45,638 bases of DNA, from assembly GCA_002688435.1 (NCBI GenBank), contig NZCW01000022.1:1-45638 (forward strand), in the 5' to 3' direction. This DNA comes from Dehalococcoidales bacterium. GTDB lineage: Bacteria; Chloroflexota; Dehalococcoidia; Dehalococcoidales; RBG-16-60-22. How positions within the stretch are numbered: the first letter of the stretch is position 1; the number at the start of each line of letters is the position of its first letter. The notes under the pieces were generated by a model. It was given only the letters and a program-made list of their open reading frames with translations. It was not told where the DNA came from and did not search any database. The position numbers and the translations under genes were made by a program. Below, piece after piece: positions 14,762-20,066 of this stretch.

Positions 14762-16741
<1,980 letters not shown>

Positions 16742-16817
16742 TAAAAATTCCCCGTCCCGTTTGAATACAATTTCCGCCAGCTTCCCGAGCTGGCCGACCA
16801 ATCAAATAAAATGATAC

Positions 16818-17273
16818 TTAATCCTGTGCCGTAACGCCCATCAGTTGGGCAAAGGCATTTTCCAGCCTGGTGGCAATCACCGAGGCTAATCCCCGATAAA
16901 CCTTGGAGCCTATCACAGGATGGTTCTCACACATTTTAGCCAGTTCTTTACCATTGAAAGCCAGTACCCGAGTCGTCTCTATGGCTTTCACCGTGGTGTG
17001 GCTGCGGTAGGGCGACATCAGGGCAGACCAAGCGATAACCTCAAAATTGGAAGCCGCCTGAAGTTGTCGATGGGCCATCGGCCCCAGTTCAAGATGAAGT
17101 CCGACCAGCCCGTCTTCAATGAAATAGAGTTTCTCCTGGGTCCGACCTTGCTTACACAGTCTCTCGCCCACCTCATATACTTCTTCGGCGCCGATTTCGG
17201 CAATCATTTTAAGCTGTTCATCGTCCAGCTCACGAACAAAGGGACATCTTTTCAATACCTCCAACTTAGTCAC
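16818..17273 (-). CDS. Stand-alone cyclic-nucleotide-binding-domain (Crp/PKA regulatory-like) protein without HTH
   Basis: VLKRCPFVRELDDEQLKMIAEIGAEEVYEVGERLCKQG..LYFIEDGLVGL..YRSHTTVKAIETTRVLAF; GTG start with GGAGG upstream; no C-terminal HTH. Confidence 0.85.
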   Translation of the reverse strand: MTKLEVLKRCPFVRELDDEQLKMIAEIGAEEVYEVGERLCKQGRTQEKLYFIEDGLVGLHLELGPMAHRQLQAASNFEVIAWSALMSPYRSHTTVKAIETTRVLAFNGKELAKMCENHPVIGSKVYRGLASVIATRLENAFAQLMGVTAQD

Positions 17274-17876: not shown

Positions 17877-18386
17877 TCACTTCTTTTTTCGTCTGGTACT
17901 TTCCTCGAGTACCCGATCAATAAGCTGGCGGTGCGCTTTCTTATCCAGAGAGCGGTCAATGACTTTCCCTGCCACCATTATTGTCAGGTCGGCCACCTCT
18001 TTACGCACCTCCTCAATCGCTTCGTCCCGCTCCCGCTGAATCTCATGGCGGGCCCGGGTGAGTAGAGTTTCTGTTGCCTGCCTAGCTTCCTCCTGCGCTT
18101 TTTGTTTCACCTCTTCCCCGGTCTGGACGGCCCGGGTGATTTTTCCCTGCCCTTCCCGACTGGCCGCTTCGAGTTGCTTTTTCACCTCTTCTTCGGCGTG
18201 AGCCGCCTGCTCCTTAATCGATTCCGCTTGCGCCATGCTCTCTTTAACCCGTCGGGAACGCTCATCCAACATCCGCATCACCGGTCGGTAAGCCACCAGA
18301 TACAGAAGGCCGAGCAAGATAGCCACGTTAACAATCTGCGCCACCAGCACCGGTAAATTTATACCAAGATCGGCCAGGCCTCCCAT
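17877..18386 (-). CDS. atpF: ATP synthase b subunit
   Basis: N-terminal TM helix, RPVMRMLDERSRRVKESM, long coiled coil. Confidence 0.95.
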   Translation of the reverse strand: MGGLADLGINLPVLVAQIVNVAILLGLLYLVAYRPVMRMLDERSRRVKESMAQAESIKEQAAHAEEEVKKQLEAASREGQGKITRAVQTGEEVKQKAQEEARQATETLLTRARHEIQRERDEAIEEVRKEVADLTIMVAGKVIDRSLDKKAHRQLIDRVLEESTRRKKK

Positions 18387-18478: not shown

Positions 18479-18586
18479 CTAACTAGCCAGCACCGCCGCC
18501 ACCACCAGTCCGGTGAGCACCAAGGCTCCCAGTATGGCAGCGGCAATAATAACACCTATGGCCAAGGGTATACCATCCTGTCCCAT
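18479..18586 (-). CDS. Uncharacterised 35-aa single-TM micropeptide MGQDGIPLAIGVIIAAAILGALVLTGLVVAAVLAS
   Basis: ATG 18586 preceded by GGGAGGT at good spacing; TAG at 18479-18481; between atpE and atpF; too short for the ORF track. Confidence 0.7.
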   Translation of the reverse strand: MGQDGIPLAIGVIIAAAILGALVLTGLVVAAVLAS

Positions 18587-18606
18587 AACTACCTCCCTCT
18601 ATTACT

Positions 18607-18837
18607 CTAGACAATCATCGCCAAGATAATAGCGATAATCAGGGCATAAATACCGATAGCCTCACAGAAAGCGGTCACCAGAATCATGTTAGTCATTATC
18701 GGACCGCTGGCTTCCGGGTTGCGGGCAATTCCCTGCAGCGCCGAAAAGCCGATAAGCCCTATCCCTAGCGCCGGCCCCATTAATCCCAGCCCAGCCGTCA
18801 ACCCCACCGCCAACATTTTCATTACTTCCGCTTCCAT
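18607..18837 (-). CDS. atpE: ATP synthase c subunit (proton type by binding-site residues)
   Basis: GIGLIGFSALQGIARNPEA and AFCEAIGIYALIIAI. Confidence 0.96.
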   Translation of the reverse strand: MEAEVMKMLAVGLTAGLGLMGPALGIGLIGFSALQGIARNPEASGPIMTNMILVTAFCEAIGIYALIIAIILAMIV

Positions 18838-18879: not shown

Positions 18880-19845
18880 TCAGTCACCCGCTCCCTGCTC
18901 CCCATGGTGGACCACCGCCAGAGTCAGAAATACCAAGGTCAGCCCGCCGAAGATAAGTGCCTGGACAAAGCCGACGAGCAGCTCCAGTCCGTAAAACGGT
19001 ATGGCAAACACCCAGGGAACTAGGAAAGCGGTAATCAACAGCAGTATCTCACCCGCCGTCATATTGCCGAAAAGACGGAAGGTAAAACTAACAATCCGGA
19101 TGAACTCACTCAGCGCCTCCAGGCAACCGACAAAAATATGGATAAGGCCGGTGAACATACCGATCATTCCGTCACGTACCCTGCCTCGTACTATCTGTCC
19201 AATACTTCTTAGAAACTGTCCTATATTAAGAAACTTACCTAGATAGTGAAAGCCTAGCGACTGCAGCCCGAAGTACTCCACGAAGACGAAGGATATCAGT
19301 GCCAGGGCCAGCGGCATATTAATATCGGTATTAGCGCCCCGGAGCAGATGCACATGGTGACCATCGGCCGTGGTCACCATTATGGAGCCGAATCCGGGAA
19401 TCAGGCTCAGCCAAGCGTTAAAAGCGACAAACAGAAAAATAGTGGCCACCACCGGGAAGAAGCGGCGTCCGTTCTCTTCTCCGGCCACCCTCTGGCAGAG
19501 ATGGTAAAGCCAGCCCAGTAAAGATTCAAAAGCGCTCTGCAGTCTCCCGGGCACAATCTTCATCCGACGGGTAATGACGTAGGCAAAGACCACCAAAAAA
19601 AGCATGGTCAGCCAAGCACCGATAATGCTATTGGTAACGGGAAAACCGAACAGATGGAAAACTACTTCGGCCGGTAGTTCCGGCACGGGCCGGGGTACGA
19701 TGAGCCAAGCCGGCAAGCCGAGGTCGCCAAACAGGCTCCTGCCCAACGGACCGATAACAAAGCCAGTGACCAAGAGTACAAAGAAGACCGCTAAAAACCC
19801 GACCACCACGTAGAAGGAAACACCGAAATAGCCCCGTTTAGGCAT
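18880..19845 (-). CDS. atpB: ATP synthase a subunit
   Basis: SFTFRLFGNMTAGEILL, ELLVGFVQALIFGGLTLVFL. Confidence 0.96.
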   Translation of the reverse strand: MPKRGYFGVSFYVVVGFLAVFFVLLVTGFVIGPLGRSLFGDLGLPAWLIVPRPVPELPAEVVFHLFGFPVTNSIIGAWLTMLFLVVFAYVITRRMKIVPGRLQSAFESLLGWLYHLCQRVAGEENGRRFFPVVATIFLFVAFNAWLSLIPGFGSIMVTTADGHHVHLLRGANTDINMPLALALISFVFVEYFGLQSLGFHYLGKFLNIGQFLRSIGQIVRGRVRDGMIGMFTGLIHIFVGCLEALSEFIRIVSFTFRLFGNMTAGEILLLITAFLVPWVFAIPFYGLELLVGFVQALIFGGLTLVFLTLAVVHHGEQGAGD

Positions 19846-20066
19846 CAGCCGTTCTCCTTGTCCTGCCGGTCAGAAACGAGCGGCAGAAGCATCCGGTAAA
19901 CACCATAAAAAGTAACCATAATTCCCAGAATCAAACCCGGTAGCCAGAGCCAGTTTGTGCCGAACTTATTATCAAGCCAGAGGCCAGCCAGCACACCCAG
20001 CATAATAGAACCACCAATAAAAAACCCCACCCCTACCAGCCTCAAGGCGGCTACCCATCTGCTCAT
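19845..20066 (-). CDS. AtpZ/AtpI-like small membrane protein
   Basis: Two TM segments, GGSIMLGVLAGLWLDNKFGT; TGATG overlap with atpB start; first gene of atp operon. Confidence 0.8.
   Translation of the reverse strand: MSRWVAALRLVGVGFFIGGSIMLGVLAGLWLDNKFGTNWLWLPGLILGIMVTFYGVYRMLLPLVSDRQDKENG

Follow-up and report, generated by a model that had tools for sequence, protein, structure and literature searches.

A conserved one-helix micropeptide gene adjoining atpE in Dehalococcoidia, probably encoding an Fo accessory subunit or c-ring assembly factor

A gene of 35 codons, lodged between atpE and atpF in the ATP synthase operon of a Dehalococcoidales bacterium, was found to have counterparts in many relatives and, from the comparison of their sequences, is near certain to be protein-coding. 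Its product is probably a one-helix accessory subunit of the Fo sector or an assembly factor of the c-ring, and the explanation modestly favoured here, on the grounds of gene sequence and neighbourhood, is that of a genuine translated one-helix membrane protein of the Dehalococcoidia Fo motor that acts on subunit c. The usual picture of the bacterial F-type ATP synthase is one of eight fixed subunits served by AtpI-type helpers, and a conserved extra protein tied to subunit c would add a new component to an enzyme that is among the best studied. No published description of the open reading frame (ORF) was found in the open-access literature, preprints excluded.

The window (the whole stretch of DNA analysed, 45,638 nucleotides) carries the operon on its reverse strand in the order atpI, atpB, atpE, micropeptide, atpF, atpH, Crp-like ORF, acetyl-CoA-synthetase-like ORF, atpA, atpG, atpD and atpC, where the names other than atpI, atpE and atpF were given by sequence and position and not by profile scan (Table 1). 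The micropeptide ORF starts with an ATG and lies 20 nt downstream of the atpE stop and 92 nt upstream of atpF, in a gap of 220 nt (18607 to 18386) that is empty except for this gene. A sequence-only reading had described the ORF, its sequence and coordinates, its GGGAGGT ribosome site and the otherwise empty gap, and every one of these particulars was reproduced. No known RNA element was found in the gap, the Rfam scan of the window giving two tRNAs only, and no second credible copy was found in the window's own genome by profile search. In the same operon, atpH and atpA are split (14762-17273, reverse strand) by the Crp-like cyclic-nucleotide-binding ORF (16818-17273) and the acetyl-CoA-synthetase-like ORF (14762-16801).

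Table 1. Positions of the micropeptide gene, its operon neighbours in the window, and related loci in other genomes.
Feature	Location	Strand	Description
Micropeptide gene	18479..18586	-	35 aa, MGQDGIPLAIGVIIAAAILGALVLTGLVVAAVLAS; start codon at 18586, stop codon ending at 18479; one predicted transmembrane helix (residues 5-34)
Shine-Dalgarno of the micropeptide gene	18591..18597	-	GGGAGGT, read 18597-18591
atpE, subunit c	18607..18837	-	PF00137; near-constant neighbour of the micropeptide gene
atpF, subunit b	17877..18386	-	PF00430; 3' of the micropeptide gene
atpB, subunit a	18880..19845	-	Upstream of atpE; named from position and AtpB-like sequence
atpI-type gene	19845..20066	-	PF09527; the detached trios begin with a gene related to it
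Detached trio, CP070693/G047	L045:3738-4368		AtpI-like two-helix protein, c, micropeptide
Detached trio, G058	L153:3577-4217		AtpI-like two-helix protein, c, micropeptide
Stand-alone homologue, G085	L155:2901-3008	-	MEQEGIPTWIAIFVAMAVVVAFIIVGAVFVAVLQMT; same strand as, and just upstream of, nuoE/nuoF-like genes
Stand-alone homologue, G306	L093:6-113	-	MEQEGFPTGLGLIIGFAVLGAFIFAGIVVGAVIMSG; opposite strand to nuoE/nuoF-like genes

The loci of relatives were retrieved via atpE. In 96 non-redundant loci the gap between atpE and atpF was inspected, and 66 of them carried a hydrophobic ORF of 33-45 aa with an ATG start directly 3' of atpE, a proportion that is not a frequency, the sampling having been made partly by similarity to the window's atpE. 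The homologues start 1-60 nt downstream of atpE and comprise 65 distinct peptides, 28 of them exactly 35 aa long; a Shine-Dalgarno-like element precedes all 65, and near the N terminus they share an almost unvarying G-[IL]-P motif. Three of the sampled loci, labelled Deltaproteobacteria, nest in the same clade and are probably misnamed bins, the others being Dehalococcoidia or Chloroflexi. Ten phylogenetically separate pairs gave a dN/dS of about 0.21, with changes over the codon positions of 55/24/96, and displayed 65 amino-acid differences against 96±5 when the same substitutions were placed at random (minimum 78 of 1000). That 65 distinct sequences agree in frame, start, ribosome site, length class and motif, together with this purifying selection, places the ORF beyond chance, and the low dN/dS and the deficit of amino-acid changes mark it as a protein-coding gene. 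The outcome that the sequence-only reading had named as refuting, a lack of conservation of frame and ribosome site in relatives, was not observed.

A profile of 39 members matched 40 of 393 genomes of the class at E ≤ 0.01, and 33 of these also passed E ≤ 2e-5; the matches were spread over many families and orders. A phylum-wide search gave no credible match outside Dehalococcoidia, the hits there being weak and confined to the inside of long ORFs. On a tree of subunits c and b the trait falls on both sides of the class and requires eight changes, for which the simplest reading would be a gene ancestral in Dehalococcoidia with several losses. Many members of this class of mostly uncultured bacteria do not carry the micropeptide in the atp operon, the closed genomes G038 and G182 included, which we take to be Dehalococcoides and Dehalogenimonas, genera with cultured members. 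The gene is easily overlooked, with its absence from these closed genomes and its length of about 35 residues; moreover, 51 of the 65 peptides contain neither lysine nor arginine, so that they yield no tryptic peptides and trypsin-based proteomics is blind to them.

AlphaFold2 predicted a single helix over residues 5-34 with a mean pLDDT of 94.6. The N-terminal segment is acidic (95 D/E versus 5 K/R summed over the 65 peptides), the helix core is free of D/E, and the C tails contain K/R/H and no D/E, which, by the positive-inside rule, suggests an orientation with the N terminus outside and the C terminus inside. Small residues recur at about every five positions (permutation p = 0.006), and a single conserved helix face was not significant (p = 0.22).

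The linkage of the micropeptide gene to atpE is tighter than to atpF, atpB or the F1 genes, with atpE a near-constant neighbour and the distance to atpF ranging over 2-152 nt in relatives. Two genomes of different families (G047 and G058) carry detached trios of an AtpI-like protein, c and the micropeptide, with neither atpB nor atpF and distant from these and from the F1 genes. Against an AtpI profile built without them, the first proteins of the trios in G047 and G058 scored 6.8e-6 and 0.006, respectively, and a profile of the trio's AtpI-like protein matched these two trios only among the 156 genomes of the order. No F-type a subunit was detectable in G058 and V-type proteolipids were present, so that the ring of this trio may have a use outside an F-type synthase. 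The absence of PF00119 from G047 is uninformative because a scaffold gap lies where atpB belongs in its atp operon; on this single-contig chromosome (CP070693) the gap is of 100 N, just upstream of atpE (L040:3861-3983), and atpB is unseen. In G071, the interval between atpB and atpE holds a related ORF, MEQNLVLMLIGAVLASAIIGAFVIVGGVLAGVLGRREQ, that is preceded by a ribosome site of its own and looks like a relocated copy, with weak similarity (18 bits, E 0.004) and without the GIP motif; it was the only comparable hydrophobic ORF in the 26 atpB-atpE gaps of operons without the downstream ORF. The constancy of atpE against the variable distance to atpF, the detached trios and the position of the G071 ORF on the other side of atpE make subunit c the likely partner. 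Of the columns of c and b, those that differed most with the presence of the gene were mostly in c, with only four supported independent pairs. The sequence-only reading had offered an Fo-sector peptide with an accessory or assembly function as one of two possible roles, and this part is supported, not proven, by the class-wide conservation, the adjacency to atpE and the trios.

On the favoured explanation, the micropeptide would be co-produced with c from one mRNA and inserted into the membrane with its acidic N terminus outside and its C terminus inside, where its small-residue surface could pack against the c-ring and help the assembly or stability of the ring; it might do so as a resident accessory subunit or, together with AtpI, as a transient helper. 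Operons that lack the micropeptide can also contain AtpI, and the two are therefore not simple substitutes. The company of AtpI in the detached trios fits an assembly role, since AtpI/UncI is described as the c-ring chaperone (PMC4154653). These trios also constitute a defined three-gene unit for probing the assembly of the proteolipid ring.

The tie to c is not absolute, as G085 and G306, draft metagenome bins of different families, each carry a clear family member that is not beside atpE but close to nuoE/nuoF-like genes. In G306 the atpE-atpF gap does not contain the ORF, although the family mates G153 and G138 carry one there; the contig of G085 ends just past atpE. These stand-alone copies could have moved within the genome, or they could have a second role. 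They also lend some weight to a rather unlikely alternative, in which the micropeptide is a general small protein of the respiratory membrane that serves a nuoE/nuoF-type enzyme, another complex or membrane physiology, its place beside atpE being merely convenient for expression. However, only two such cases were found among the 33 strongly matching genomes, the rest of the strong matches adjoin atpE wherever their flanks were inspected, the detached trios retain the micropeptide beside c, and the operon copy of G306 may simply have moved with its partner unchanged.

An unlikely variant, drawn by analogy, is that of a permanent rotor subunit, with the helix, as a single copy or several, placed within the c-ring or against it, perhaps in the hole at the centre of the ring, where it might modify ring size, the lipid plug or coupling. 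The small-residue recurrence and the lack of a preferred conserved face fit a helix contacted from several sides and do not prove it. The model for such an arrangement is the V-ATPase, in which the helices of Ac45 and the (pro)renin receptor sit in the core of the c-ring (PMC7414150). If the c-ring reading is right, the micropeptide would share with them a single transmembrane helix that binds a proteolipid ring; unlike it, they come from eukaryotes and are type-I proteins whose luminal domains are large.

Searches of Pfam (39 members), NCBIfam and PDB gave no match, or chance matches below the cut-off, and no profile relationship to any Pfam or NCBIfam model was seen; a very remote relationship is possible for so short and hydrophobic a sequence. 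In subunit b or b' a membrane anchor leads into a long coiled coil in the cytoplasm, and an assignment to this family (PF00430) was rejected with 35-45 aa, no stalk, no similarity to b N-termini and no Pfam match. It is very unlikely that the micropeptide is a b' remnant, the membrane anchor of a second b subunit whose stalk is gone. The gene does occupy the b' slot of a-c-b'-b operons, and b likewise has its N terminus outside and one anchor helix, but the comparison of the profile with 94 b N-termini gave a probability of 0.1 and no real alignment, and the micropeptide accompanies c where no b gene is near and in G071 lies upstream of c. It is about equally improbable that the ORF is a leader or spacer whose translation as such, irrespective of the peptide made, adjusts the amount of c relative to the downstream subunits by translational coupling. 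A position between high-copy c and low-copy b and a ribosome site of its own would suit that function; nevertheless, conservation extends to the amino-acid sequence, the spacing to atpF is variable, and the ORF is also found without atpF downstream.

Subunit c is a hairpin of two helices joined by a polar loop of the RNP type, the second helix bearing an ion-binding carboxylate, and the micropeptide was rejected as F-type subunit c (PF00137), with one helix, no D/E in the helix core, no profile similarity and no Pfam match. The second role offered by the sequence-only reading, a decayed or truncated c-subunit-like hairpin, is scarcely credible, for despite a Gly/Ala-rich hydrophobic helix adjoining atpE the profiles of c and its halves gave probabilities of ≤0.2, there is no RNP loop, the N-terminal motif is distinct and invariant, and the sequence is under purifying selection. 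Assignments to the AtpI/AtpZ type (PF09527, PF03899) and to AtpR (PF12966), which have two or more helices, were likewise rejected, none of the 39 members matching Pfam. Peptides of the cyanobacterial AtpTheta type are short and inhibit ATP hydrolysis; the micropeptide is unlikely to be one of these or another inhibitory peptide, since it is almost wholly a hydrophobic helix.

Among known systems, CydX of cytochrome bd and KdpF of the Kdp ATPase are accessory subunits with one helix each and about 30-40 residues, encoded in operons; the micropeptide shares their size, single helix and operon setting, whereas their complexes are different and no sequence match to them was found in the libraries searched. 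As with small one-helix accessory subunits, a conserved short gene is here linked to the genes of a complex, with the exceptions of G085 and G306. Members of the AtpI/UncI type (PF09527, PF03899) resemble the micropeptide as small membrane proteins of the atp operon, and the micropeptide joins AtpI-like proteins and c in the trios; they differ in having two helices, with no profile match between them, and the window operon has an AtpI of its own. Subunit IIa of the B-type (ba3) cytochrome oxidases is a single helix that was overlooked by earlier annotation (PMC3128077). It is similar in its length of about 35-41 residues, in its one helix and in having been missed, and belongs to a different complex; moreover, it is biochemically proven, whereas the micropeptide is a predicted protein.

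Two further features of the relatives concern the Fo genes themselves. At L062:4434-5006 and at L218 near 440-1018, atpF starts with a lipoprotein-like signal (LLSGCDAA and LLSSCDAA, respectively), which suggests a lipid-anchored subunit b in these relatives. Each of the genomes G107, G145, G224, G392 and G425 gave five or six separate c-subunit family matches, compared with one in most relatives.
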